Assembly (NCBI GenBank): GCA_011391495.1
Contig: JAABQK010000006.1
Coordinates: 1-64,000 of the forward strand
Origin: Hydrogenophaga sp.
Lineage (GTDB): Bacteria; Pseudomonadota; Gammaproteobacteria; Burkholderiales; Burkholderiaceae_C
Length of the DNA: 64,000 bases
Direction: 5' to 3'
The position numbers were made by a program, and so were the translations under genes. The notes beneath the pieces are model-generated. The model was given only the letters and a program-made list of their open reading frames with translations, was not told the origin of the DNA and searched no databases. Positions 2,078 to 36,564 of the stretch are shown here, piece by piece. Positions within the stretch are counted from its first letter, which is position 1. Every line of letters starts with the position of its first letter.

Positions 2078-3100
2078 ATGACCCAGTTCAGTTTCGAATT
2101 CGATTCCCCCAAGCCAGCAGAGCCCCCGGCCGTTGCGCCCGAGGCCACCACCGCAGTGCTGAATCCGGAGCAGATGGCGCGGTTGTTGGAGCGGCACGCC
2201 GACTACCGCGTCCTGCGCCGGCTGGTTCCCACGCTGGACTTCGGACCCCATCTGCGCGACCTGGACGTTGCCTTGGATGCCACCAGTGTCCAGCGCGTGC
2301 TGGTGCTCGACACCGAAACCACCGGGCTCTCGCACCAGACCGACAAGATCATTGAGCTGGCCATGTTGCTGGTGCAGGTGGATACCACCACTGGCTTGCC
2401 GTTTGGGCCGGTCGAAGTCTTTGAAGGCTTCGAAGACCCGGGCATGCCCATTCCCCCGGTCGCGCAGGAGGTGACGGGCATCAGCGATGACATGGTCCAA
2501 GGCCAGCGCCTGGATGACGATCGGGTCGCGGCCATGGTGGCCAGGGCCGATCTGATCGTGGCGCACAACGCCGGGTTCGACCGGCCCTTCGTGGAGGCGC
2601 GCTTTCCCTGCTTTGCGGCCAAAGCCTGGGCCTGCTCGTTCATGGACATCGACTGGAAAGCCGCTGGCGCGGGCTCGTCCAAGTTGAGCGCACTCGCCAG
2701 CGATCAGGGCTGGTTCTACGATGCGCACCGCGCGCAGGTGGACTGCCACGCCTTGCTGCAGGTGCTGAGCCAGCCGGTGGGCAGCACCACCACCACCGGC
2801 CTGAGCCAGCTGATCGCAGCGGCCGGTCGGCCCAGCTTCAGGCTGCGTGCGACCGGCTCGCCCTTCGAGTCCAAGGACAAGCTGAAGGCCAGGGGTTACC
2901 GGTGGGATGCGGAGGCCAGGGTCTGGGCCTGCACACTGGCGAGCCAGGCACAACTGGACGCCGAGATGGAGTGGCTCCACGCCGAGGTCTATGGTCGGCG
3001 CAGCGTGCGGCCGGAGATCGAGGCGCTGGACAGCAGGGTCCGCTATTCAGCGAGGCCGGGGCACACCATTGAACAGGGCCAGCAGGTGATGACGAGGTGA
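2078..3100 (+). CDS. 3'-5' exonuclease (DnaQ/PolIII epsilon-like, DEDD family)
   Basis: VLVLDTETTGLSHQTDKIIELA ExoI motif; later VAHNAGFDRPF motif. Confidence 0.85.
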   Translation: MTQFSFEFDSPKPAEPPAVAPEATTAVLNPEQMARLLERHADYRVLRRLVPTLDFGPHLRDLDVALDATSVQRVLVLDTETTGLSHQTDKIIELAMLLVQVDTTTGLPFGPVEVFEGFEDPGMPIPPVAQEVTGISDDMVQGQRLDDDRVAAMVARADLIVAHNAGFDRPFVEARFPCFAAKAWACSFMDIDWKAAGAGSSKLSALASDQGWFYDAHRAQVDCHALLQVLSQPVGSTTTTGLSQLIAAAGRPSFRLRATGSPFESKDKLKARGYRWDAEARVWACTLASQAQLDAEMEWLHAEVYGRRSVRPEIEALDSRVRYSARPGHTIEQGQQVMTR

Positions 3101-3172
3101 TCCTGTCCCCGACGGGCAACGATCAGAAGAAGGACTTCCGGATCCTCCGAGATCGTCGTTGTCGTTGGTTGC

Positions 3173-4504
3173 TCAGCGCTGTGGCATGTCCTGGACGCCG
3201 TAGCCCAGGCTCACCGTCGCGTCCGCCGGGATCGGCGGCAGGGTCGCGTCCCAGGCCAGCCACTGTTCGCGCATCTTCGCCAGTCGATCGGGTTCGCGCT
3301 TCGCGAGGTTGGCACGTTCGCGCGCGTCGGCCGGGATGTTGAACAGGTACTCGTGTCCGTCCACCATCAGGTACTTCCAGGCGCCCTCGCGCAGCGCGCG
3401 CTGGCTGCGGTGGTTCATGCGCCAATGCATCGGCCGCTCGAAGCGCTGCGCCGGATCGCGCAGCAGCGCCGCCAGCGACACGCCGTCCAGCGGGTAATCG
3501 GGGTGCGGCCGGCCGCCGCCGAGCTCCAGCATCGTCGCCGACCAGTCCATGGTCAGGCAGTGCTGCTCACTCACCGAGCCAGGCGGAATGATGGCGGGCC
3601 AGTGCGCGATCCAGGGCACGCGGATGCCGCCTTCGGTCAGGTCCATCTTGCCGCCCACCAGGGGCCAGTTGTCGCTGAAGCGCTCGCCGCCGTTGTCGCT
3701 GGTGAAGACGATCAGCGTGTTTTCCAGCAAGCCGTGCTCGCGCAGCGCAGCGGTGATCCAGCCGATGCCTTCGTCCATGTGGTGGATCATGCGGCGGTAG
3801 CTCTCCACATTGCCGCCATCGAGGTGGAACAGGTTCTTCGCCACCTCGGGCGCCACATGCGCGTCGTCCCGCGTTTCCCAGGGCCAGTGCGGCGCGGTGT
3901 AGTGCAGGCTCAGGAAAAAGGGCTGGCCAGCCTTGGCGTCGACGGCGCGCTGCTGGATGTGGTCCACCGCGCGCTTCGAGAACACGTCGGTCAGGTAGCC
4001 CACCTCCTTGTGTGTGTCTTCGCCGATGTAAAGGTCGTGGTCGCCGCTGCTGCTGCAGTGGGTGAAGTAGTCCACGCCGCCAGCCATGATGCCGAAGAAC
4101 TCCTCGTAGCCCGAGCGCAGCGGGCCGAAGTGCGGCGGGTAACCCAGGTGCCACTTGCCGATCAGCGCCGTGCGGTAGCCCGCGTCTTTCAGCAGCGAGG
4201 GCAGGGTGGGGGTCTCGGGTGGCAGGCCCAGCGTGGCGCTGCCTTTGCTGCGGCTGTTGATCGGCTCTTCCAGCGCGCCGCGCAGGCGGTACTGCCAGCG
4301 CATGGTGGCCATGGCAAAGCGCGTGGGCGAACACACCGGCGAATTGGCGTAGCCCTCGGTCAGGCGGAGGCCACTGGCGGCGAGCGCGTCGATGTTCGGC
4401 GACACGGCGCCAAAGCCGGCCTGGCGGCCGCCGTAGCATCCGAGGTCGGCAAAGCCCAGGTCGTCGCTGACGATGTAGAGGATGTTGGGGCGATTCGCGC
4501 TCAT
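3173..4504 (-). CDS. sulfatase / arylsulfatase
   Basis: NILYIVSDDLGFADLGCYGG metal site and C-S-P-T-R formylglycine signature (CxPxR). Confidence 0.93.
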   Translation of the reverse strand: MSANRPNILYIVSDDLGFADLGCYGGRQAGFGAVSPNIDALAASGLRLTEGYANSPVCSPTRFAMATMRWQYRLRGALEEPINSRSKGSATLGLPPETPTLPSLLKDAGYRTALIGKWHLGYPPHFGPLRSGYEEFFGIMAGGVDYFTHCSSSGDHDLYIGEDTHKEVGYLTDVFSKRAVDHIQQRAVDAKAGQPFFLSLHYTAPHWPWETRDDAHVAPEVAKNLFHLDGGNVESYRRMIHHMDEGIGWITAALREHGLLENTLIVFTSDNGGERFSDNWPLVGGKMDLTEGGIRVPWIAHWPAIIPPGSVSEQHCLTMDWSATMLELGGGRPHPDYPLDGVSLAALLRDPAQRFERPMHWRMNHRSQRALREGAWKYLMVDGHEYLFNIPADARERANLAKREPDRLAKMREQWLAWDATLPPIPADATVSLGYGVQDMPQR

Positions 4505-15626: not shown

Positions 15627-15775
15627 GCGTTGGGGTCTTTTCGCTGGCAGGTCAACAAAAATGGAGCAATGCAAACGGTCCACCAGCGCGGGGCATGGGC
15701 CGGACGGTCAAGGTAGGCCTATTAAAGACAACGGGGCCCATGGCCGTCTATAGCCGACACGGGTGACCCGGCGTA

Positions 15776-15787
15776 ACCCAAATGGGT
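15776..15787. promoter_or_regulatory. palindrome ACCC-AAAT-GGGT between soeA and the sensor kinase gene
   Basis: flanked TAACCCAAATGGGTAG; same pattern at 31962 and 40709. Confidence 0.55.
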
Positions 15788-15910
15788 AGCGTGAGCGTTG
15801 CTGGTCTGCGCTGGCATTTCGCACGCGGCGCTAACAGCAGATGTCCTCGCGCGCCTCGGGGTTTTCAGCATGCATCAGTACATGCTTGTGTACTAGTATG
15901 GTTTGGGTAC

Positions 15911-17137
15911 ATGGCCCTTCGCCAACCTGGGCTCGCTCTCACCATGCCAACGCTTTCCGTCACCCCTGCACACGCTGACACCGCCATCTCGGGCTTGATG
16001 GCAGAAGGGGGTGCGTCCGGCGATCTGGAGCCGCTGCTCCAGCGCTTTCTGGTCTCCATCGTGGATCTTGCCGGCGCACAGGCTGGCGCTGTGCGGGTGT
16101 TGACGGATGACGGTCTGCACATGCGGCTGGTGGCACAACAGGGGCTGCCAGCCAACGTGCAGAACGCCGAACGGCTGGTGGATCGTGATTGCGGCATGTG
16201 CGGCGTCGCGGCCGGAGCCGACGTCCTGGGCTGGGTGGAAGACGTGCGATCCTGCGCCCGAAGCGGACCCGAACCCTATTTCGGCGAGCAGTGCAAGGGC
16301 GTGCTGGCCATACCGCTGTCGCACGCGAACCAGGTGCTCGGTATCTACAACCTGTTTTTCGAGGCCAGGACCCAGCTGGAGCCGACGACCTTGACCATCC
16401 TGCGCCTGATCGGCCAGTTGCTGGGCCTGGCGCTGCACAACGCCCGGATCGAGCGCGAGCGGCTGCGCGTGACGGTGATGAAGGAGCGCCAGGAAATGGT
16501 CAACGAAGTGCACGACGCGATTGCACAGACGCTGGCCTACGCCAGGATGCGCCTGCCGCTGCTGAACGATGCGATGCTCGCCCACGACGACCCGAAATCG
16601 ATCAAGTATTTCTCCGACGTGAAGCAGGCGGTGGGTGAGGTGCACGACAACCTGCGCGAGGTGATGACCTATTTCCGCACCCGCATGGATCCCCTGGGCC
16701 TGTTGCATGCGCTGCAGGGCATTGCCGACGGGTTCTTTGGCCGTACGGGCATCGTGCTGGAAATCCGGAACACGGTGCAGAATCTGAACCTGAGTGACGA
16801 ACAGGAGGTTCAGGTGTTTCACATCGTGCAGGAATCGCTGGCCAACATCGCCAAACATTCCATGGCGCGGCATGCGGCGATCGCCATCGGCAAGACCCCC
16901 GAGTGCCTGGAGTTCGTGATCGAGGACGATGGCCTGGGCATGGGGGCACCCTCGGTGTCCACCATCGTGACCACGGCGAAGGGCCTGTCTGGGACCGCCC
17001 ATTTCGGACTGGAGATCATGCAGAGCCGTGCCCGGCGCCTGGGCGGTCGCCTTGAGGTTGGCGAAAACGCCGGTGGCGGTACCCGCGTGCGCCTCGTGCT
17101 TCCCCTGACCTCCGGCTCCGCAGAACGCACACCATGA
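15911..17137 (+). CDS. GAF-domain sensor histidine kinase, NarX/NreB-like (HisKA_3)
   Basis: GAF-like region with CGMC cluster; H-box NEVHDAIAQTLAYARMRL; HATPase DDGLGMG; start uncertain (15911 or 15944). Confidence 0.85.
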   Translation: MALRQPGLALTMPTLSVTPAHADTAISGLMAEGGASGDLEPLLQRFLVSIVDLAGAQAGAVRVLTDDGLHMRLVAQQGLPANVQNAERLVDRDCGMCGVAAGADVLGWVEDVRSCARSGPEPYFGEQCKGVLAIPLSHANQVLGIYNLFFEARTQLEPTTLTILRLIGQLLGLALHNARIERERLRVTVMKERQEMVNEVHDAIAQTLAYARMRLPLLNDAMLAHDDPKSIKYFSDVKQAVGEVHDNLREVMTYFRTRMDPLGLLHALQGIADGFFGRTGIVLEIRNTVQNLNLSDEQEVQVFHIVQESLANIAKHSMARHAAIAIGKTPECLEFVIEDDGLGMGAPSVSTIVTTAKGLSGTAHFGLEIMQSRARRLGGRLEVGENAGGGTRVRLVLPLTSGSAERTP

Positions 17138-17856
17138 CGACACAGACGACTCAGGCCATGCAGACGCGGGTGATGCTGGTGGACGACCATGCACTGTGCC
17201 GCAGCGGACTGTCCGAGCTGCTGCAGCACCGCAGCGGCATGGTGGTGGTCGGCACCACAGGCGACCCCGCGCAAGTGATCCCCCTGCTGCGCGAATGTCA
17301 GCCCGAGCTCATGATCCTGGACCTGTGCCTGGGCGCAACCGATGGTCTGAGTGTGCTGCGTCTGGTGCGATCGGAGGGCTTCGACATCCCGGTGGTCGTG
17401 CTGACCATGAGCGACAGCGAAGACGACCTGTCGGCGGCACTGCGTGCAGGCGTGCGGGGCTACCTGCTCAAGGACATGGAGCCCGACGACGTGATTGAGT
17501 CGATCGGCCGCGCCGCGCGCGGCGAACTGGTGGTGGCCCCCGCGATGGCCGCCAAGCTGGCCCAGATGTGGCAGAGCGGGCAGAAGGGCTCGGTCAAGCG
17601 CGACCTGGTGGACACGCTGACCGAACGCGAGCGGCAGGTGCTGGATCAGGTGGCGCGCGGCAAGAGCAACAAGGTGATTGCGCAGGCGCTGGACATCAGC
17701 CACAACACCGTCAAGCTGCACGTGCGTCACATCATGGCCAAGCTCGACCTGGGCTCGCGCGTGGAAGCCGCGGTGTTCGCCTTTGAACACCGCAGTGCGT
17801 CCGACAGTTCGGGCACCGTGGGTGACGCAGCGGGTTCCGGACGCCGCTCGACGTGA
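17134..17856 (+). CDS. NarL/FixJ family response regulator with LuxR-type HTH
   Basis: MLVDDHALCRSGL receiver; LTERERQVLDQVARGKSNKVIAQALDISHNTVKLHVRHIMAKL. Confidence 0.93.
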   Translation: MTTQTTQAMQTRVMLVDDHALCRSGLSELLQHRSGMVVVGTTGDPAQVIPLLRECQPELMILDLCLGATDGLSVLRLVRSEGFDIPVVVLTMSDSEDDLSAALRAGVRGYLLKDMEPDDVIESIGRAARGELVVAPAMAAKLAQMWQSGQKGSVKRDLVDTLTERERQVLDQVARGKSNKVIAQALDISHNTVKLHVRHIMAKLDLGSRVEAAVFAFEHRSASDSSGTVGDAAGSGRRST

Positions 17857-19154: not shown

Positions 19155-19529
19155 TCAGTGTTCGCCTTTGGTGCGCAACAGGCCGGCGAGCCGGTTGCCC
19201 TGCTTTTGCGGACCGCCGCGGGGAAACAGGTCGTGCAGGTGGTGGTTGCTGCCGCGCTCCGGACCCCAGACCTCGGTGAAGTGCTTGATCATCACGCGCA
19301 CCTGGGCCTGCACGCCATGCTCGGCGTAGTAGGCCCGCAGGAAACGCACCACCTCCCAGTGGGCGTCGGTCAGCGTCAGTTCTTCCTGTGCGGCGAGCGC
19401 ACGCACGAAGTCTTCCGACCAGTCGGCGAGGTTTCTCAGGTAGCCCTCGGAGTCGGTTTCGACCGGGCGACCACGGACCATCAGGACGCGGGTGAAGGCA
19501 TCTGCAGGCGTTGAAAGGGTGGCGTTCAT
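19155..19529 (-). CDS. TusE/DsrC/DsvC family protein lacking both conserved C-terminal cysteines
   Basis: VETDSEGYLRNLADWSEDFV...LTDAHWEVVRFLRAYY; C-terminus GNRLAGLLRTKGEH. Confidence 0.88.
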   Translation of the reverse strand: MNATLSTPADAFTRVLMVRGRPVETDSEGYLRNLADWSEDFVRALAAQEELTLTDAHWEVVRFLRAYYAEHGVQAQVRVMIKHFTEVWGPERGSNHHLHDLFPRGGPQKQGNRLAGLLRTKGEH

Positions 19530-20947
19530 GCGGCAAGCCTTTCTGTGTTCACGGTGCGGATCGATCCGGCGCCGCGCTGGCGCCGTGCGCGCACGAAGTC
19601 GACAAAATGCCGTGCCCAGTCGGTGCCGGCCACACTGCGCAGGTGGGCATAGGTGGCCAGCAGGTTGTCCTGCACGACGCCGTCGTGCCGCCCATCGATG
19701 CCATGGCCGCGTGTGACGCGCCAGGCGTAGCGCGTCTCTGCCGGCAGCCCATCCAGACTGGAATAGTGGAACTCGTGGCCCCGCACGTGGCGACCCTGCA
19801 GGCCAGACCACGGCATGTGTTCGCTCGCGCTCAGGTGCACGTAGCCGCGTCCCACCGGTTTGTCGTGCAGGGTGGCATCGCCCGCGACGGCGCCCACCAT
19901 GTCGCATTGCTCGTCGCGCCAGCGCAGGGAGCGCGCCAGGTACATCAGGCCACCGCATTCGGCGTAGGTCGGCAGGCCGTCCACTATGGCCGAGGCGATG
20001 GCCGTGCGCAGCGCCGTGTTGGCTTGCAGCTCGTGCATGAACAACTCGGGGAAGCCGCCCCCGATGAACAGGCCGTCGATGGATTCGGGGAGCGCCGGAT
20101 CTTGCAGGGTGTCAAACGGCAGCAGTTCTGCGCCTGCGTCCCGCAGGGCCTGCAGATCGTCCGGGTAGTAGAAGCCGAAAGCACGGTCCTGTGCCAGGGC
20201 AATGCGCACACGCGCCGCCGGACTGGCGGTGGGCGTGATGGTGGCGGGTGACAGGTTCAGCGCGGGCGCACTGACGGCCAGCGCACGCACCCGGTTCAGG
20301 TCCACCTGGGCTGCCACGCGCTCGCCGATGAGCGCGATCTGTCGGGTGGCGTCGGCGTGTTCGTTGCTCGGCATCAGGCCGAGGTGGCGCTCGGCCACCG
20401 CCAGGTCACTGTCTTCGGCGATGGCACCCAGCACCGGCACGTCGGTGTAGTGTTCGATCACCGCGCGCAGCTTGGCCTCGTGCCGGCTGCCGCCCAGCCG
20501 GTTCAGGATGACGCCGCCGATGCGGATGTTGCGGTCAAAGGCCTGGTAACCGAGGATCAGCGGCGCGATGCCACGCGTCATGCCGCGTGCATCGATCACC
20601 AGCAGCACCGGCAGGCCCAGCAGCTGCGCGAGCGCGGCGTTGCTGTTGCTGCCGTCCAGCGCCAGTCCGTCGTACAGCCCCTTGTTGCCCTCGACGATGC
20701 TCAGGTCGGCACCGCCGGCATGGCGTGCAAACAAGGCACCGATCTGTTCCGGCGTCATGAGGTACGGATCAAGGTTGTAGCAGGCGCGACCGCTCGCACG
20801 CGCCAGCCACATCGGGTCGATGTAGTCCGGCCCCTTCTTGAAGGGCTGCACCGCCATCCCGCGCGCGGCGAAGGCCGCGCACAGGCCCAAGCTGACCGTG
20901 GTTTTGCCCGAGGACTTGTGTGCGGCAGAGACGAGCAGGCGGTTCAT
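19526..20947 (-). CDS. dsrN: cobyrinic acid a,c-diamide synthase-like, siroheme amidase DsrN
   Basis: SAAHKSSGKTTVSLGLCAAFAARG...KKGPDYIDP; C-terminal GATase with YAECGGLMYL. Confidence 0.9.
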   Translation of the reverse strand: MNRLLVSAAHKSSGKTTVSLGLCAAFAARGMAVQPFKKGPDYIDPMWLARASGRACYNLDPYLMTPEQIGALFARHAGGADLSIVEGNKGLYDGLALDGSNSNAALAQLLGLPVLLVIDARGMTRGIAPLILGYQAFDRNIRIGGVILNRLGGSRHEAKLRAVIEHYTDVPVLGAIAEDSDLAVAERHLGLMPSNEHADATRQIALIGERVAAQVDLNRVRALAVSAPALNLSPATITPTASPAARVRIALAQDRAFGFYYPDDLQALRDAGAELLPFDTLQDPALPESIDGLFIGGGFPELFMHELQANTALRTAIASAIVDGLPTYAECGGLMYLARSLRWRDEQCDMVGAVAGDATLHDKPVGRGYVHLSASEHMPWSGLQGRHVRGHEFHYSSLDGLPAETRYAWRVTRGHGIDGRHDGVVQDNLLATYAHLRSVAGTDWARHFVDFVRARRQRGAGSIRTVNTERLAA

Positions 20948-27929: not shown

Positions 27930-28262
27930 TCAGACGCAGCCGGTCGGCTTGGGCAGGCCAGCGATCTTGCAGGCCTGCTTGGCCGGTCCATAGGGGAACA
28001 GTTCGTAGAGGTACTTGCTGTTGCCCTTTTCCTCGCCGAACTGCTTGCCGATGGCCTTGGTCAGCACGCGAACGGCCGGTGCGATCTGGTACTCGTTGTA
28101 GTAATCGCGCAGGAAGTTGATGACTTCCCAGTGGTTGTCGGTGAGCGGGACCTTTTCCTCTTCGGCGATGTACTCGGCGATGTCCTTGTTCCAGTCGGCC
28201 AGGTTGATCAGGTAGCCCTCTTCGTCGGTCTCGTAGGTGCTGCCTTTGACTTCGATGCTCAT
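27930..28262 (-). CDS. dsrC: DsrC, canonical sulfur carrier with both conserved cysteines
   Basis: C-terminus AKQACKIAGLPKPTGCV. Confidence 0.97.
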   Translation of the reverse strand: MSIEVKGSTYETDEEGYLINLADWNKDIAEYIAEEEKVPLTDNHWEVINFLRDYYNEYQIAPAVRVLTKAIGKQFGEEKGNSKYLYELFPYGPAKQACKIAGLPKPTGCV

Positions 28263-28313: not shown

Positions 28314-28613
28314 TCAGAGCCAGGAGTTCGACGTGCTGTGTTCGGCCACCAGGTCGACAAAGCCGCCGTAGTCCACCAGCGTCACGTTGTCCAGTGCCCG
28401 GGAGGTCATGCCGCGCGCCTCCATGTCGGGCTTGAGTGCGTAGAACCTGACCTGTGCGCCGGCTTCGCGCAAGCGCGCTTCCACCGGACTGCCGGTGGTG
28501 GCGGCGTAGATGCCGTCTTCGATCAGGAGCACGGCATGACCGGGCAGGACCATGCGCAAACAGCTCTCCAGCGAGCGGGTCTGATGGGGGGATTTGTTGA
28601 CGATGTGCAGCAT
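28314..28613 (-). CDS. dsrH: DsrH (TusB family)
   Basis: MLHIVNKSPHQTRSLESCLRM; operon position. Confidence 0.92.
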   Translation of the reverse strand: MLHIVNKSPHQTRSLESCLRMVLPGHAVLLIEDGIYAATTGSPVEARLREAGAQVRFYALKPDMEARGMTSRALDNVTLVDYGGFVDLVAEHSTSNSWL

Positions 28614-28623
28614 GTGGGCTTCC

Positions 28624-28980
28624 TCAAAAACTCAGGACCACGTCCTGCTGGGCCATCAGTTCGGCCATCTGCGTCGTGTCCAGCACTTCCACCGGCACCA
28701 GCAGGTCGGCCGCGCTCAGGCCGCGCTGGGTCAGGGATGTCTGGTCAACGTAGAGTTTCTCCACGTCGTAGCCCTCCAGCGCCCGGTAGCTGGGCGAGAA
28801 GTTCTTGATGCCGATCTCTTTGGTCTGCTGGCCTTTGACCAGCTCGTAGACACCGTCGTCCATGAAGACCAGGCTCACATCCTGGTCAAAGGTGGCGGTG
28901 ATCAGCACCACCTCCAGGCTCTCCAGCGCGTAGATCGTGCCGTAGGGTGCCTTGCGGTTGACGAACATGAATTTTTTCAT
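28624..28980 (-). CDS. dsrF: DsrF (TusC family)
   Basis: KKFMFVNRKAPYGTIYALESLEVVLITATFDQDVSLVFMDDGVY. Confidence 0.92.
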   Translation of the reverse strand: MKKFMFVNRKAPYGTIYALESLEVVLITATFDQDVSLVFMDDGVYELVKGQQTKEIGIKNFSPSYRALEGYDVEKLYVDQTSLTQRGLSAADLLVPVEVLDTTQMAELMAQQDVVLSF

Positions 28981-28997
28981 CGCAGCTTCCTTGTCCG

Positions 28998-29357
28998 TCA
29001 GTCGCCGAAGGTCACCAAGCGGTCGGCCTTGATGCCGCTGTCCACCAGCTGTCCCAGGCCCGAGATGCGAAAGCCCGGGGCCAGCACCTCTTCCTTGATG
29101 CCGCGGCGCAGCGCAGCAGCCACGCAGACCACGAGGTCGACGTTGTGCTCGGCCTTCAGCGCCGACCAGCGGTTGACGATGTGGCGGTCGTCCTGCGGCG
29201 GCTCGGTCAGTCGCGTGGCGTTGTTGACGCCGTCGTGGTAGAAAAAGACGCGCTGGATCTCATGCCCCTTCGCGATCGCCGCCACGCAGAACTGGTAGGC
29301 GCTGTCGGAAGCCTGGTGGGTGTAGGGCCCCTCGCTGACGAGTAAACCGAATTTCAT
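28998..29357 (-). CDS. dsrE: DsrE (TusD family)
   Basis: MKFGLLVSEGPYTHQASDSAYQFCVAAIAKGHEIQRVFFYHDGVNNA; VCVAAALRRG cysteine. Confidence 0.93.
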   Translation of the reverse strand: MKFGLLVSEGPYTHQASDSAYQFCVAAIAKGHEIQRVFFYHDGVNNATRLTEPPQDDRHIVNRWSALKAEHNVDLVVCVAAALRRGIKEEVLAPGFRISGLGQLVDSGIKADRLVTFGD

Positions 29358-29379: not shown

Positions 29380-30450
29380 TCAGAAACGGATGTGGGTCGA
29401 GGCGTTCAGGCTGGAGCGTGAGCCGCGCCAGTCGTCGATCAGGTACTTGGTGAAGGGCAGATCGCACTTCTCGAAGAAACGCGGCCAGCCGATGCGCTCC
29501 ACCCAGTCCGACAGGCGCTCCCAGGGACGGGCATCTTCCTTGTAGGTGTAGAGGATCTTCTTGACGATCTCAGACACCTCGGGCCAGCGCGGCGGGTTGT
29601 TCGGGATGCCCGACGCGACCATCTTCATGAAGGTGGGCTTGCCACGCGCATTGGAGTTCTTGCCGCCGACCCAGATGGCGAACTTGGAGTGTTCGGGGTC
29701 GTTGATCTGCATCGGCGGGCAGGGCGGGAAGCAGGCGCCGCAGCAGATGCATTTCTTCTCGTCAACCTCCAGCGACGGCTTGCCGTTCACCAGCGCCGGG
29801 CGGATGGCCGCCACCGGGCAGCGGGCCACGACGGCCGGGCGCTCGCAGGCGTTGGCCACCAGATCGTGGTTGATCTTGGGCGGCTTGGTGTGCTGGATCA
29901 CGATCGCGATGTCGGCCTGGCCGCCGCAGTTGATCTCGCAGCAGCTGGTGGACAGGTGCACGCGGTTAGGCATGTCCTCGCGGATGAACTCGGTGTAGAG
30001 CTCGTCCATCAGCGCCTTCACGGCGCCCGAGGCGTCGGTGCCCGGAATGTCGCAGTGCAGCCAGCCCTGGGTGTGCGCAATCATCGACACCGAGTTGCCG
30101 GTGCCGCCGACCGGAAAGCCGCTTTCCGTGAGGGCCGAGATCAGGGGCGCGACCTTGTTCGGGTCGGACACCATGAACTCGATGTTCGAGCGGATGGTGA
30201 AGCGCACATGCCCTTCGGCATAGGTGTCGGCAATGTCGCACAGCTTGCGAATCGTGTGCACGTCCATCTGGCGCTGGGTGCCGGCGCGCACCGACCAGAC
30301 CTCGTCGCCGCTGTGCGAGACGTGGTGCAGCACGCCGGGCCGCGGCCGGTCGTGGTATCGCCAGTTGCCGTAGTTCTTCAGCAGGGTCGGATGCAGGTAC
30401 TGCTTGTTGTCCGGCACGCCGCTCTCGATGGGGGTACGCATTTGGGCCAT
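29380..30450 (-). CDS. dsrB: dissimilatory sulfite reductase beta subunit
   Basis: CCEINCGG; CICCGACFPPCPPM; starts MAQMRTPIESGVPDNKQYLHP. Confidence 0.95.
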   Translation of the reverse strand: MAQMRTPIESGVPDNKQYLHPTLLKNYGNWRYHDRPRPGVLHHVSHSGDEVWSVRAGTQRQMDVHTIRKLCDIADTYAEGHVRFTIRSNIEFMVSDPNKVAPLISALTESGFPVGGTGNSVSMIAHTQGWLHCDIPGTDASGAVKALMDELYTEFIREDMPNRVHLSTSCCEINCGGQADIAIVIQHTKPPKINHDLVANACERPAVVARCPVAAIRPALVNGKPSLEVDEKKCICCGACFPPCPPMQINDPEHSKFAIWVGGKNSNARGKPTFMKMVASGIPNNPPRWPEVSEIVKKILYTYKEDARPWERLSDWVERIGWPRFFEKCDLPFTKYLIDDWRGSRSSLNASTHIRF

Positions 30451-30509: not shown

Positions 30510-31808
30510 TCAGGCCGCAGCCTGCTTGCGCGCCATGTACTTGGCGGCTTCCTCGTCCCAGTCGTCGGTGCGCACGTAGGGGTTGGTGCGCGGGGTGGAG
30601 ACCATGTTGGGGTCTACCTCCAGCTCGATGCCTTCGAGGAAATTGACCAGACCGATGCGCTCGATCATCTCGCCGGTACGCTCGTGTTCCAGTGCGTTCT
30701 CGGCGAAGAAATCGATGATCTTCTGCCCCAGTTCGACCAGGCCTTTGTAGTCCTCGTCGGTCTTCAGCGGCATGAAGGGCACCACCACCGTGCCCATCAG
30801 GTCGCCGATCTTGAGCGTGCGCTTGCCGCCGACCAGGATCGTGGCGCCGGTGTCGGTGCCATGGGCCAGCGCGCCGGTCATGACGTTGATGCAGTGCATG
30901 CAGCGCACGCAGTTGCTGTTGTCGATTTCCAGGCACTGCGTGTCGTTGATCTTCACGCTGGAAATCTTGTCGCCCTGGGCCACGTCCTTGACTTCCTTGA
31001 GCATGATGGTCTTGGTCGGGCAACGGTTGATGACGTCGTTCACCAGCTCGTTCATGCCGTGCTTGTCAAACCACTTGCGCGCCAGGACCTCGTCGGTGCG
31101 CATGTTGTCGCGCCAGGTGCCGATGACGGCCATGTCCGAGCGCTGGATCGAGTTCATGCAGTCGTTGGAGCAACCCGAGAACTTGAACTTGAACTTGTAG
31201 GGCAGGGCCGGACGGTGGATGTCGTCGAGGAAGGTGTTGATCACCTGCCGATGGGCGCGTGCCTCGTCGAAACACGACTGCTCGCAGCGTGCCGCACCGA
31301 CACAGCTCATCGAGGTGCGCACGGCCGGACCGGCACCGCCGAGGTCAAAGCCGAGTTCGTTGAGTGCATCGAATGCATCCTGTACCTTGTCGGTCTTGGC
31401 GCCCTGGAACATGATGTCGCCCGACTGGCCGTGGAACGCAATCAGCCCGGAGCCGTGCTCCTCCCAGATATCGCACATCTTGCGCAGCACGTCGGTGTTG
31501 TAGTGCATGCCGGCCGGCGGCTGGATGCGCAAGGTGTGAAACTCGGCGGCGTCCGGGAACTGGGGCTTGCCGTCGGCGTCCTTGAGTTCGGTGAAGCGCG
31601 GGATCACACCCCCGCCGTAGCCGAACACGCCGACCGTGCCGCCCTTCCAGTAGCCCTTGCGCGTCCGGTACGACGTTTCCAGCTGACCCATCAGGTCAAC
31701 CATGTAGTCCTTTTCCTTGGCCAGCCGCTTGAGGCCGGTCACGAAACTGGGCCAGGGACCGCTTTCGAGCTCGTCGAGCATCGGGGTCTCGTGCATCTTC
31801 TTGGCCAT
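30510..31808 (-). CDS. dsrA: dissimilatory sulfite reductase alpha subunit
   Basis: CVGAARCEQSC, FKFSGCSNDC siroheme-FeS ligands; CVRCMHCINVM ferredoxin motif. Confidence 0.96.
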   Translation of the reverse strand: MAKKMHETPMLDELESGPWPSFVTGLKRLAKEKDYMVDLMGQLETSYRTRKGYWKGGTVGVFGYGGGVIPRFTELKDADGKPQFPDAAEFHTLRIQPPAGMHYNTDVLRKMCDIWEEHGSGLIAFHGQSGDIMFQGAKTDKVQDAFDALNELGFDLGGAGPAVRTSMSCVGAARCEQSCFDEARAHRQVINTFLDDIHRPALPYKFKFKFSGCSNDCMNSIQRSDMAVIGTWRDNMRTDEVLARKWFDKHGMNELVNDVINRCPTKTIMLKEVKDVAQGDKISSVKINDTQCLEIDNSNCVRCMHCINVMTGALAHGTDTGATILVGGKRTLKIGDLMGTVVVPFMPLKTDEDYKGLVELGQKIIDFFAENALEHERTGEMIERIGLVNFLEGIELEVDPNMVSTPRTNPYVRTDDWDEEAAKYMARKQAAA

Positions 31809-31882
31809 GTCTTGTCTCCTGTCTGGGTGCCGTTTTTGACCACGGCGGTGATGACTTGCTGGACATTGCAGGGGCTCTGTCG

Positions 31883-31903
31883 ACCCCTTTACCGGTATGG
31901 GGT
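31883..31903. promoter_or_regulatory. inverted repeat ACCCCTTTACCGGTATGGGGT in dsrA/cassette divergent region
   Basis: imperfect dyad centred on TACCGGTA. Confidence 0.5.
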
Positions 31904-31961
31904 GCATCGTAGGAGCCAAGACCGACCTCTTGCTATCCCCCTCGTTGGCTAGGCGGGATTA

Positions 31962-31973
31962 CCCATAAGGGTT
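31962..31973. promoter_or_regulatory. palindrome ACCC-ATAA-GGGT in dsrA/cassette divergent region
   Basis: flanked TTACCCATAAGGGTTA; same family as 15776 and 40709 sites. Confidence 0.55.
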
Positions 31974-32083
31974 ATATGGCCCCACCCGTCCCGGCTATAG
32001 ACTGCCGCCCCCGGAATTGCGTCAATAGCGCAGAGGTGCGATGCCCGCCAGCCGGCGGACACCCCAAGGACAGTGACGGAGAC

Positions 32084-32311
32084 ATGAGCCAGATCACCCC
32101 GCTAGAAAAATTCAGGGTGCCCCTCGGTGGACAGGAGATCGAGTTGCAGCAGCTCGACCACGACGCGGGTGGCATGAGCCTCCTGCGCACCCGCATCCGC
32201 GAGAAAAGCCGTTTCACGGTTTTCGACATCGACCCCCAGACGGCCGAACACTGGGGCGAGGCCCTGCTGCGCTGGGCGCGGGCACAGCCTGGACGGACGG
32301 ATCTTCCATGA
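32084..32311 (+). CDS. hypothetical protein (75 aa), first gene of the cassette
   Basis: MSQITPLEKFRVPLGGQEIELQQLDHDAGG...; TGACGGAGAC upstream; overlaps next gene by ATGA. Confidence 0.7.
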   Translation: MSQITPLEKFRVPLGGQEIELQQLDHDAGGMSLLRTRIREKSRFTVFDIDPQTAEHWGEALLRWARAQPGRTDLP

Positions 32312-32934
32312 GCGCCGCGTTCGACGAACCCCTTCAGGCCGCCATGGTCGATCTGGTGTTTCCGCTGGGCGGACACAGCCTGCCGCGCGATTCGGCGCCG
32401 GCCTTGCGGGTGGCCCTTCAAAGGGAGCTGCCCTGGCTCGATCAGGAGCCTCAGGCCGGCATCCACCCTCTCAAGCTGGTGCCGGGGACAGACGCCGAGG
32501 CCCTGCTGTCGCAACGCACGCGCCTGTTCCTGCGGTTGCCGCGCGAGCGCATCGACGCCGCTGCCGGGCTCGCCGGGCGTTCCCTGCAGCTGGGTGAACA
32601 GGCGGTGATCGTTGGGCAACCGCATCCGCGCGAACTGCTGCCGCACCGCACCCTGTACGCCTATGCCGTGGCTGCGGAGGCGGACGATGAGATCGCTTTC
32701 ATGCAGGCCATGAACGACGAGTTGCAGGGCCTGCAGGTGCGCTCGCAGGTGATCTGCGGCAAGCGCCAGCAGCGGGACTGGCCCGGTGGCGCGCTGACCA
32801 CCTTCAGCCTGATGCTGCACGGGCTCACCCAGGGGGATTCGTTGCTGCTGCAGGAGCACGGACTGGGTCGCCACCGTTTGCTGGGCTGCGGCATCTTCGT
32901 GCCGCACAAGTCGGCCGCAGCGGTCGGCGAATAG
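32308..32934 (+). CDS. Cas6/Cmx6-like (type I-MYXAN-like) protein, orphan
   Basis: N-terminal VDLVFPLGGHSLPRDSAPALRVALQRELPWL; C-terminal HGLGRHRLLGCGIFVPHK matching the Cas6 glycine-rich loop GhGxxxxxGhG; family recall not database-checked. Confidence 0.65.
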   Translation: MSAAFDEPLQAAMVDLVFPLGGHSLPRDSAPALRVALQRELPWLDQEPQAGIHPLKLVPGTDAEALLSQRTRLFLRLPRERIDAAAGLAGRSLQLGEQAVIVGQPHPRELLPHRTLYAYAVAAEADDEIAFMQAMNDELQGLQVRSQVICGKRQQRDWPGGALTTFSLMLHGLTQGDSLLLQEHGLGRHRLLGCGIFVPHKSAAAVGE

Positions 32935-32976: not shown

Positions 32977-33306
32977 ATGGGCTACCACATCAATGGCGTT
33001 GAACTCGAAACCGATGCCGAGGGGTATCTGCTCGAACCCGACTACAGCGAAGAGGCGGTGCAGGTGATCGCGGCGGCCGACGGCCTGGTCCTGACGGCCG
33101 AGCACTGGGAAGTCATCAACTACATGCGCGACCAGTACCGCGAGCACGGCCATACGCCCAACTTCCGCAACATGCTCAAGGGCTACGCCGAGATCCGCCA
33201 GGGCGTGGACAGCAAGTACCTGTACGACCTGTTCCCGCTCGGACCGGCCAAGCAGGCGGCCAAGGTGGCCGGTCTGCCGCAGCCGCTGGGCAAGGGTGGG
33301 TATTGA
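32977..33306 (+). CDS. TusE/DsrC/DsvC family protein without both redox cysteines
   Basis: GVELETDAEGYLLEPDYSEEAVQVIA...LTAEHWEVINYMRDQYREHG...SKYLYDLFPLGPAKQAAKVAGLPQPLGKGGY. Confidence 0.92.
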   Translation: MGYHINGVELETDAEGYLLEPDYSEEAVQVIAAADGLVLTAEHWEVINYMRDQYREHGHTPNFRNMLKGYAEIRQGVDSKYLYDLFPLGPAKQAAKVAGLPQPLGKGGY

Positions 33307-33309
33307 GAT

Positions 33310-33401
33310 GACCCCCCTGCGTCGGCTTCGCCGCCTTCCCCCCACGGGGGGACAACGCCTGTGGCCGGGCGAAGCCCGTTCCACGGCGTTTCCCGGTTGG
33401 G
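33310..33401 (-). repeat. copy 2 of structured ~95-nt interspersed repeat, intergenic in the cassette
   Basis: reverse complement CCCAACCGGGAAACGCCGTGGAACGGGCTTCGCCCGGCCACAGGCGTTGTCCCCCCGTGGGGGGAAGGCGGCG aligns to 23419-23518. Confidence 0.75.
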
Positions 33402-33441: not shown

Positions 33442-34050
33442 ATGGCCCTGCGCATCAAGAACCAGTGGTTTGACAGCGGGCGACCGAAGTCCGCGAAGGA
33501 GACCGCCAGCGTGGTGGCCTTCATCGTCTGGCGCGTGACGCAGAACATGGTCAAGCAGATGCGCGAAGCCCGGTTCGACATCGATGTCGGTCCGCAGTAT
33601 TTCGCCTTCATGCGGGAAATCCTGGGCTTTCTGGTCCAGGTGGTGGACCGTATGGCGTTCGAGCGCATGACCGTGGAACAGCGGGCGGAATTCACCGGTG
33701 CGCTGGTGCGCCGCGTGGCCGAGATCCTGGAGGAAAGCGAGCTGGAATGGATGGGCCCGCCGGCCGGCGGTGCGGACAGCTGGCGCAACCAGTTCATCGA
33801 TTTCTGCAACGAACTCGGCGATGCCTATGCCGACTTCGGTCACGGCCCCGATGGCCCGGACTTCGGTTTCGTGCGCTACCTGGGCAGCCGCATCGAGGCC
33901 GTCATGCCGTCGAAAGACCAGCACTGGGTCAAAGACCAGATGATGGCGATCGAGGTGCCGGAGGCGTTGGAAATGGTGCGCCGCGGCATGCACGGCGCGC
34001 TGTCGACTGAGCCGCGGCCAGCGCGCCGCGCCACGATGAGTGGAGACTGA
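33442..34050 (+). CDS. conserved-looking hypothetical protein (202 aa)
   Basis: MALRIKNQWFDSGRPKSAKETASVVAFIVWRVTQNMVKQMREARFDIDVGPQYFAFMREILGFL...; co-oriented in cassette. Confidence 0.75.
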   Translation: MALRIKNQWFDSGRPKSAKETASVVAFIVWRVTQNMVKQMREARFDIDVGPQYFAFMREILGFLVQVVDRMAFERMTVEQRAEFTGALVRRVAEILEESELEWMGPPAGGADSWRNQFIDFCNELGDAYADFGHGPDGPDFGFVRYLGSRIEAVMPSKDQHWVKDQMMAIEVPEALEMVRRGMHGALSTEPRPARRATMSGD

Positions 34051-34052
34051 AG

Positions 34053-35003
34053 ATGGCAGGACCCGCCCACAACCCCTTCGACCTTGACCAGCCGCAGGCC
34101 TACGCGCGGTGGCGTGCCGCCAAGCTGGCGCTCCAGCCACGGTGTGTCGACGATCTGATCGTCGACGTGACCGATCCGCGGCGCCTGAGTGCGGACGAGC
34201 GCGCCGCGTTGCTGCACACCTGCGCGGGCAGCAACATGGCGGTCTACCGCAGTCCGGTGGTCGAGGAAGACAAGGCGCTGCCGCGTCTGCTGGGCGCACA
34301 GCTCGGCCTGCAGCGGCTCGACGCCAACTGGCTGGCCGACGAGGACGGCATCTCGCCCATCGCCGTCAGCCGCAACCCTGGCGCCCGTGCCGACTTCATC
34401 CCTTACACCGACAAGCCGATCCGCTGGCACACCGATGGCTACTACCATCCGCAGGCGCGTCGCATCGAAGGCATGATCCTGCACTGTGTGCGCGCCGCCG
34501 GCGAGGGCGGCGTCAGCGGGCTGGCCGACCATGACCGGGTTTACATCGCAATGCGCGATGCCAGCCCCGCCTGGGTGCGCGCGCTCATGGCCCCGGACGC
34601 CATGACCATTCCCGAGCGCACCGACGAACAGGGCGTGGCCCGTCCGGCACAGAGCGGTCCGGTGTTCAGCGTGCTGACCGGCTCCGATGGCGGCCACGCG
34701 CTGCACATGCGCTACACCGCTCGCACGCGCAGCATCGCCTGGAAGGACGATGCCGACACGCGCGGCGCTGTGGCCTTCCTGGAGCAGCTGCTGTCTGGTG
34801 ACGCACCCTGGATCTACCGTCTGCGGCTGCAGCCCGGCATGGGCATCGTCGCCAACAACGTCCCGCACGAGCGCAGTGCCTTCACCGACGATCCCCAGCG
34901 GCCGCGCCTGCTGTACCGGGCGCGTTATCTCGACCGGGTTGGCGACGCCCTGACGAACCCGGCCGCCGAGCCAGGGGCCGCGCTGGAGGCATTGCACGCA
35001 TGA
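34053..35003 (+). CDS. TauD/TfdA-like Fe(II)/2-oxoglutarate dioxygenase
   Basis: IRWHTDGYYHP (HxD) and distal NNVPHERSAFTDD. Confidence 0.75.
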   Translation: MAGPAHNPFDLDQPQAYARWRAAKLALQPRCVDDLIVDVTDPRRLSADERAALLHTCAGSNMAVYRSPVVEEDKALPRLLGAQLGLQRLDANWLADEDGISPIAVSRNPGARADFIPYTDKPIRWHTDGYYHPQARRIEGMILHCVRAAGEGGVSGLADHDRVYIAMRDASPAWVRALMAPDAMTIPERTDEQGVARPAQSGPVFSVLTGSDGGHALHMRYTARTRSIAWKDDADTRGAVAFLEQLLSGDAPWIYRLRLQPGMGIVANNVPHERSAFTDDPQRPRLLYRARYLDRVGDALTNPAAEPGAALEALHA

Positions 35004-35064
35004 GCGCAGCGCCGTGCCGCTCCCAAGCCAGCTCCCACCGCAGTCAGCAGGGCGAGGTACTCCC

Positions 35065-36564
35065 GTGACCCACTGGCTGACGATCTGGCGCGCGGCCCAG
35101 CTGGTGGGCGTGCCCCGAGGCGTGCTGCAGCAGCAGGTGCGCAGCGGCGCACTGGTGCTGACCGAGGGACTGGTGTCCACCGACGACCTGCTGCTGCTGT
35201 ACCCGAGCGTCCAGCTGGAAGAAACTGGTCTGCTCGAGAGGGTGGCCCACATCCGCGACGAGGCCTTCGGCAAGCGCCTGCGCGAGCGCCTGCTGCCCAG
35301 CCAGGAGGTGCTGGCGCAACGCCTGTTCAGCCAGACGCAGGAACTGGCCGACGTCAGGCGCTATCTGCAGCGCTACCACGCGCTGGTGGTGGCCCTCCAG
35401 TCGCGCATCCATGTCCTGCAGCAAGAGGGCGCCACGCCGCTGGCGCTGTCCGAGCTGCAGGATTTTGTCGACCAGGGGCTGGCCCAGGCGCTGGCGACCG
35501 AACAGGCCGACCTGCTCACGGTGATGGACGACATGCTCAAGGTCATGACAGCCCAGGTGACGGTGCGCCCCAGCGGCCGCGAGTTCTGTGTCGAGGGGCA
35601 CGACACCCTGCTGCAGGCCGGCCTGCGCGCCGGCCTCAAGCTCAATTACGGCTGCGGCAACGGCACCTGCGGCATGTGCAAGGTGCGCGTGATCGCCGGC
35701 CAGGTGGCGCGCACCCAGCCGTTTGACTACCCGCTGTCGGAAGCCGAACGCGCACAGGGCTACACCCTGATGTGCGCGCACACCGCAGCCAGCAGCGAGC
35801 TCACGCTGGAGCTGCTGGAGGCCAGCGGCCCGCAGGACATTCCGCAGCAGCAGATCGTCACCACGGTGCGCGCCGTCAGCGAGCTGGCGCCGGGCACCCG
35901 GCTGCTGCACCTGCAAACCCCGCGCAGTCACCGCCTGCGCTTCCTGGCGGGCCAGTCGGTCACGCTCGGCCTGAGCCGCGCGGACGGCAGCGATGTGCAT
36001 GCGCTCTACCCGGTGGCCAGTTGCCCGTGCGACGACCGCAACCTGCATTTCTTCATCGAGGCGCATCCGCTCGACCCGTTTGCCGTCCAGCTGTTCGCCG
36101 GCGGCATCCAGCCCGGCGACGCCGTCACGGTCTGGGGGCCGGTCGGCGACTTCGTGCTGACCGAGAGCTCCCGGCCGCTGGTGTTCGCCGCCTGCGACGC
36201 CGGCGTGGCGCCGATCAAGAGCCTGATCGAGCACGCGCTCGCGCTCGACAGCGCACCCTCCCTCTCGCTGTTCTGGCTCGCTACCCGGCCGGGCGGCCAC
36301 TTCCTGGCCAACCAGTGCCGCGCCTGGTCGGAAGCGCTGGATCCCTTCGAGTATGAACTGCTGGCCGAGCCCGACATCACCTTCGGCGCGCTGCAGCTCG
36401 CGCGTGCCATGCGTGCCGACCTGTTCGACATCGAATGCGACTTCTACCTCGCGGGGCCGCTGGCATTTGTGCAGGCGCTCGATGCCGAGCTGCGTGCGGC
36501 CGGCGTGCCCGCGGCCCAGATCCACACCCAGGTGCTGGCCGAGCCGGAGGGGGTGCTGGCATGA
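35065..36564 (+). CDS. N-terminal HTH-like region fused to [2Fe-2S] ferredoxin and FNR-type reductase domains
   Basis: THWLTIWRAAQLVGVPRGVLQQQVRSGALVLTEGLVSTDDLLLLYP (MerR/excisionase-like), CGNGTCGMCKVRV...C [2Fe-2S], FNR-like C-terminus; GTG start with GCGAGG RBS, alternative ATG 35014. Confidence 0.8.
   Translation: MTHWLTIWRAAQLVGVPRGVLQQQVRSGALVLTEGLVSTDDLLLLYPSVQLEETGLLERVAHIRDEAFGKRLRERLLPSQEVLAQRLFSQTQELADVRRYLQRYHALVVALQSRIHVLQQEGATPLALSELQDFVDQGLAQALATEQADLLTVMDDMLKVMTAQVTVRPSGREFCVEGHDTLLQAGLRAGLKLNYGCGNGTCGMCKVRVIAGQVARTQPFDYPLSEAERAQGYTLMCAHTAASSELTLELLEASGPQDIPQQQIVTTVRAVSELAPGTRLLHLQTPRSHRLRFLAGQSVTLGLSRADGSDVHALYPVASCPCDDRNLHFFIEAHPLDPFAVQLFAGGIQPGDAVTVWGPVGDFVLTESSRPLVFAACDAGVAPIKSLIEHALALDSAPSLSLFWLATRPGGHFLANQCRAWSEALDPFEYELLAEPDITFGALQLARAMRADLFDIECDFYLAGPLAFVQALDAELRAAGVPAAQIHTQVLAEPEGVLA

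Follow-up and report, generated by a model that had tools for sequence, protein, structure and literature searches.

A Cas6-family protein as a near-constant member of the reverse dissimilatory sulfite reductase cluster in sulfur-oxidising Burkholderiales

Why would a Cas6-like gene lie beside sulfur-relay genes, with no CRISPR array next to it? The question is raised by cas6L, a gene of the 64-kb Hydrogenophaga window (that is, the whole stretch of DNA that was analysed), which a sequence-only reading had taken for an orphan Cas6/Cmx6-like gene with a Cas6 fold repurposed for non-CRISPR RNA.

Cas6L is a true member of the Cas6 family (PF09559/TIGR02807). Its open reading frame starts with ATG, and the protein scored 145.8 bits (E = 1.5e-42) against the TIGR02807 cas6_cmx6 model, whose curated cut-off is 98.85, and 186 bits (E = 9.7e-55) against PF09559, whose cut-off is 26.7; the likeness to the Cmx6 (type I-MYXAN) family noted in the sequence-only reading was thus borne out. 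In addition, six Cas6 models of PADLOC matched Cas6L (best 8e-55). Using the single sequence, phmmer reached the solved chain 8fcj_B, a type I-B CAST Cas6, at E = 8.7e-15, and a profile built from eight members reached the same chain at E = 1.3e-31. The AlphaFold model (pLDDT 94.5, pTM 0.89) contains two ferredoxin-like (RAMP) domains in tandem, and Foldseek placed 8fcj_B at the top of its hits (TM 0.83, E = 5e-17), followed by the Cas6 proteins of Pyrococcus, Thermus and E. coli, with 33 of the 34 hits at E <= 0.001 being Cas6 or Cascade chains. Cas6L therefore shares with type I-MYXAN/I-B Cas6 (8fcj_B) the HMM family, the tandem ferredoxin-like fold (TM-scores of 0.83 and 0.80) and the C-terminal Gly-rich loop GhG-x5-GCGhF.P. 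The C-terminus G185-L-G-RHRLL-G-C-G is an exact GhG-x5-GhG, just as had been proposed, and its glycines are kept throughout the dsr-linked members (G185, G193 and G195 in 86/86, G187 in 85/86). The N-terminal His that had been likened to that of Cas6 enzymes, H23, is not conserved; the commoner His of the family is H53 (65/86), itself missing from several lineages. H29 occurs in 59/86 members of the dsr clade and H45 in none of the 86, while seven members lack both H29 and H53; in the CRISPR-linked members the same positions hold His in 6/8 (H29), 5/8 (H45) and 2/8 (H53), none being universal. H53 was ruled out as a catalytic His, as it is missing in 21/86 members and rare in CRISPR-linked ones. 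A single-protein query found no phage or viral relatives of Cas6L.

We then considered where such proteins are encoded. In the first set of relatives, all six PF09559-positive genomes, the window's own included, carry the gene at the same locus. When GTDB genomes were searched with an alignment of eight members, 421 relatives were returned, and each of the best 80 of these 421 lies in a reverse dissimilatory sulfite reductase (rDsr) cluster. The gene order in these 80 loci is dsrCHFEBA on the minus strand, followed by DUF6967, cas6L, dsrC2, the 202-aa gene and the TauD-like gene on the plus strand (80/80), with exceptions limited to contig ends or minor changes. The carriers among the best 80 belong to Hydrogenophaga, Rhodoferax, Rubrivivax, Piscinibacter, Thiobacillus, Sulfuricella, Sulfuritalea, Hydrogenophilus and others. 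The features of the window are collected in Table 1.

Table 1. Features of the Hydrogenophaga window referred to in the text (positions within the 64-kb window).
Feature	Position	Strand	Remarks
Two-component genes, histidine kinase and LuxR-type regulator	15782-17856	+	
dsrC1, canonical DsrC	27930..28262	-	both C-terminal cysteines present
dsrE, dsrF, dsrH	28314..29357	-	names from cluster order; conserved in 68-70/80 loci
dsrB	29380..30450	-	
dsrA, reverse-type dissimilatory sulfite reductase alpha	30510..31808	-	divergent to DUF6967-cas6L
dsrA / DUF6967-cas6L divergent intergenic region	31809..32083	.	shared promoter region
Palindrome TACCCATAAGGGTTA	31960..31974	.	likely regulator site, in 45/76 relatives' intergenic regions
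DUF6967 (PF22295), 75 aa	32084..32311	+	4-base overlap with cas6L start; predicted bbbb-alpha fold
cas6L, 208 aa	32308..32934	+	Cas6/Cmx6 family, tandem ferredoxin-like fold, dsr-linked clade
dsrC2, DsrC-family paralogue	32977..33306	+	both C-terminal cysteines missing; ends ...AAKVAGLPQPLGKGGY
Conserved 202-aa protein	33442..34050	+	no Pfam match; next in operon
TauD-like dioxygenase (PF02668)	34053..35003	+	usual block end
2Fe-2S ferredoxin/FAD reductase	35014..36564	+	after block in many relatives

Co-inheritance points in the same direction as co-location. In an evenly drawn sample of 300 Burkholderiales genomes, in which DsrA was scored by a strong match and Cas6L by PF09559, the latter was found in 58/64 DsrA-positive and in 0/236 DsrA-negative genomes (Fisher p = 1.4e-55). 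Taken together with the 80 loci, these counts establish Cas6L as a near-constant member of the rDsr cluster in sulfur-oxidising Burkholderiales, a tie to the sulfur genes far closer than the sequence-only reading was able to show. Moreover, among 399 Pseudomonadota genomes, 53 were DsrA-positive; Cas6L was present in all five Burkholderiales of these and in 0/48 DsrA-positive genomes from other orders, and was thus most likely gained within Burkholderiales. Six DsrA-positive Burkholderiales genomes lack Cas6L, which is therefore important but not universal. Two of them (G575 and G597), both fragmented assemblies, are also missing DUF6967. In the other four (G539, G665, G721 and G585), DUF6967 and the 202-aa protein are both still encoded, implying that Cas6L is dispensable in some lineages. 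Several genomes (G519, G689, G632, G618, G544 and G650, among others) were seen to hold two full dsrA copies and a single Cas6L gene.

The closest companion of cas6L is DUF6967, which adjoins it in 78/80 of the best relatives' loci and is fused to it in two genomes (G055 and G602). Its invariant core is R-I-x-E-x-R-F-T, and AlphaFold modelling within the fusion gave a bbbb-alpha arrangement; the fusion alignment, in which one TGA was read through in ten rows, keeping the domain order, serves for the fold only. Although this arrangement recalls PC4-like proteins, no PC4-like nucleic-acid-binding match was returned for DUF6967 by sequence and fold searches. On the other side of cas6L, dsrC2 encodes neither catalytic cysteine in 62/71 loci and one in the remaining nine, while dsrC1 has both. 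A regulatory role has been proposed for cysteine-less relatives of DsrC. A third DsrC-family domain, also without the C-terminal cysteines, ends a long ORF at 19155-19955 on the minus strand of the window. Between dsrC2 and the 202-aa gene, at 33310-33360, lies a GC-rich hairpin element (CCCCCCTGCGTCGGCTTCGCCGCCTTCCCCCCACGGGGGG) that resembles a mobile REP-type element; it is present in some relatives (L020, L023, L024 and L031) and missing in others.

Since Cas6L passes the Cas6/Cmx6 cut-off, it could in principle be a CRISPR Cas6 that has been displaced yet still works for arrays located in other parts of the genome. Within the window, no CRISPR array or CRISPR-like repeat family was present among the direct repeats, and no other cas gene among the proteins scanned (a subset of the ORFs), in line with the sequence-only reading. 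In the window's own assembly (3.23 Mb in 68 contigs, 86% complete), searches for Cas1, DevR-type Cas7, PF10040 Cas6 and a second PF09559 gene found none, and helicase matches to Cas3 stayed below the cut-off. The same cas3, DevR-type cas7 and cas1 components of type I-MYXAN are lacking in a complete, single-contig relative (G302), where Cas1, DevR-Cas7 and above-cut-off Cas3 were searched for. Some Cas1 does occur in 21/44 Cas6L carriers, but it is absent from the other 23, DevR-type Cas7 is missing in 26/26 carriers tested, and Cas3 above the cut-off was found in 0/23. As the distribution of Cas6L also tracks that of DsrA and the CRISPR-type residues are gone (see below), such a displaced Cas6 is strongly disfavoured and appears highly improbable.

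The divergence from CRISPR-linked Cas6 was evaluated against a small set of eight comparators, namely seven cyanobacterial-plasmid Cas6 genes located beside other cas genes, and 8fcj_B. In the tree, the dsr-linked and CRISPR-linked proteins formed separate groups (support 100/99). Basic residues (K/R) at positions 119, 137 and 189 are present in 8/8 CRISPR-linked proteins versus 1/86, 27/86 and 0/86 dsr-linked ones, respectively, and K/R117 in 6/8 versus 0/86; we infer that these lost residues contact RNA in the CRISPR-linked members. The median net charge of the core falls from +7.5 in the CRISPR-linked to +1 in the dsr-linked proteins, with the core of the window Cas6L being slightly acidic (net charge -1, pI 6.7). 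Conversely, the dsr clade has its own residues, rare or absent in the CRISPR-linked proteins (R70 occurs in 2/8): R70, G151 and K201 (86/86), E128 (85/86), H200 (84/86), R81 and R108 (78/86 each) and C150 (75/86). In short, compared with type I-MYXAN/I-B Cas6, Cas6L forms a separate clade, is encoded beside DUF6967 and dsrC2 in rDsr clusters, where it has neither cas genes nor an array for company, and has lost K/R117, 119, 189 and H45 while gaining the near-invariant R70, E128, G151, H200 and K201. C194 is invariant in the dsr clade and found in 7/8 CRISPR-linked Cas6, which suggests a probably structural role. Furthermore, dN/dS values of 0.20-0.37 among close relatives of Cas6L denote purifying selection. 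Judging from these sequence comparisons, Cas6L is apparently maintained by selection for a changed function, rather than being a relic, and its job probably differs from that of CRISPR Cas6.

Regarding its regulation, the region shared by dsrA and the DUF6967-cas6L block contains the palindrome TACCC-N(3-5)-GGGYTA in 45/76 relatives, where about 0.1 would be expected. A matching palindrome (TAACCCAAATGGGTA) is located at 15774-15788, at the beginning of the gene pair for a histidine kinase and a LuxR-type response regulator, the two sites reading TAACCC-AAA-TGGGTA (15774-15788) and TACCCAT-AA-GGGTTA (31960-31974). The pair is a probable dsr regulator, with the palindrome as its probable binding site, and the occurrence of the palindrome both at the dsrA divergent promoter and at the start of the two-component genes points to cas6L as a likely member of the dsr regulon.

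The Gly-rich loop binds RNA in Cas6 enzymes. As the loop is fully kept, some contact with RNA may persist in Cas6L, and one could envisage that the protein binds a small RNA hairpin in dsr transcripts, or an RNA acting in trans, and cuts or caps it, thereby controlling dsr mRNA. The Cas6 fold itself and the divergent promoter common to cas6L and dsrA would suit such a regulator, as would a hairpin in the dsrA leader (GCCGT-8nt-ACGGC, 5 bp) that is paired in 10/10 Hydrogenophaga/Curvibacter sequences. However, this hairpin is devoid of covariation, and the Rhodoferax and Rubrivivax groups lack an equivalent: when RNAalifold was run in windows along the dsrA-DUF6967 region of four groups, it recovered the hairpin in Hydrogenophaga/Curvibacter only, and no clade-wide hairpin emerged. 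Moreover, no Rfam match was obtained, the basic residues universal in CRISPR-linked members have been lost, and the slightly acidic core of the window protein also speaks against such a regulator. We therefore regard an RNA-directed control of dsr mRNA as rather unlikely, and the broader proposal that a Cas6 lineage left CRISPR and, with DUF6967 as partner, now regulates a central energy-metabolism cluster by binding or processing RNA, as tentative to the same degree. Of the idea of a Cas6 fold repurposed for non-CRISPR RNA, then, the part concerning a non-CRISPR, rDsr-linked orphan stands, while the action on RNA is called into question by the lost basic residues, the lower core charge and the want of a clade-wide hairpin. 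An RNA-structure signal was also noticed in the dsrA-DUF6967 region of Thiobacillus (five sequences, one group).

A different proposal places Cas6L in sulfur trafficking or protein assembly, with the Cas6 fold now an adaptor that binds proteins or handles persulfide for DsrC2 or DsrAB. The dsr-specific pair C150-G151 (75/86 and 86/86) would fit this role, as would two gene contexts: in G539, which lacks Cas6L, the slot of cas6L and dsrC2 is filled by a tandem TusA-like protein (two CPGP motifs, assigned by eye; L147, about 2880-3370), and in G275 a rhodanese-like gene, also named by eye, adjoins dsrC2. Nevertheless, C150 is missing in 11/86 members, so that cysteine chemistry cannot be essential and persulfide chemistry on C150 is ruled out as an essential activity, and the invariant C194 is common to CRISPR-linked Cas6 (7/8) and probably structural. 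Given the incomplete conservation of C150, sulfur handling is a less likely role, and we consider it improbable.

The reading that we favour is that Cas6L was recruited into the rDsr cluster and there acts alongside DUF6967 and DsrC2, without catalysis, as a regulatory or adaptor factor of the rDsr system. The recruitment itself, for a non-CRISPR purpose, we regard as well supported and very likely; for the statement as a whole, role included, we estimate a probability of about 0.5. Family, fold, the single clade, co-inheritance with DsrA, the shared promoter region, purifying selection and the finding of no matching CRISPR machinery in the window's genome are the computed parts of this explanation. 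As a scenario, a PF09559 Cas6 (Cmx6) would have entered the rDsr cluster once, early in Burkholderiales evolution; within the cluster its CRISPR partners and several of the basic residues typical of CRISPR-linked Cas6 would have been lost, and it would have turned into a permanent rDsr accessory. Cas6L may now work with DUF6967 and the cysteine-less DsrC paralogue in a complex that is non-catalytic and has a regulatory or adaptor function; instead of cutting CRISPR RNA, this complex could tune the expression or assembly of rDsr proteins, with either RNA or protein as the ligand of Cas6L. Speaking against this reading are the four DsrA-positive genomes with DUF6967 but no Cas6L, the intact Gly-rich loop, and the occurrence of some Cas1 in about half of the carriers examined.

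Small accessory genes outside the catalytic core of rDsr are not without parallel, and DsrR and DsrS have a suggested post-transcriptional role. Both are dsr regulatory/accessory proteins of Allochromatium vinosum (Grimm et al. 2010, as cited in PMC11406059). Cas6L resembles them in its position and suggested regulatory role, but DsrR is IscA-like and unrelated to Cas6, and Cas6L is confined to Burkholderiales in the genomes sampled. Type IV systems and Tn7-like CAST are exapted, non-defence derivatives of CRISPR-Cas (PMC6452270), and likewise employ Cas proteins outside adaptive immunity; however, they keep a multi-subunit effector module, whereas Cas6L is found alone in a metabolic cluster. 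In the open-access literature (subscription papers being mostly outside the search), no description of such a protein was found under Cas6 with dsr, orphan Cas6, DUF6967, PF09559 or TIGR02807, and both the place of Cas6L in rDsr clusters and its divergence appear to be new. Cas6L would be a plain example of a cas gene that stands alone and has been adopted by metabolism and, with DUF6967 and the cysteine-less DsrC, is a candidate component of an environmentally important sulfur pathway.

These results also bear on annotation. The plasmid relatives of Cas6L are annotated Cas6/Cmx6, and Cas6L would receive the same annotation from the standard model; because the family cut-off is passed, hundreds of genomes probably carry the label 'type I-MYXAN CRISPR-associated Cas6/Cmx6' for cas6L. 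The present analysis corrects this misleading annotation, as the gene is a near-constant rDsr accessory whose presence does not attest to CRISPR. A second non-CRISPR context was observed on plasmid pGMOR1 of Gloeobacter morelensis (L130, 2977-3768), where the operon of another PF09559-type Cas6 is not part of a CRISPR locus and also encodes a PAPS-reductase-family protein and a cupin.
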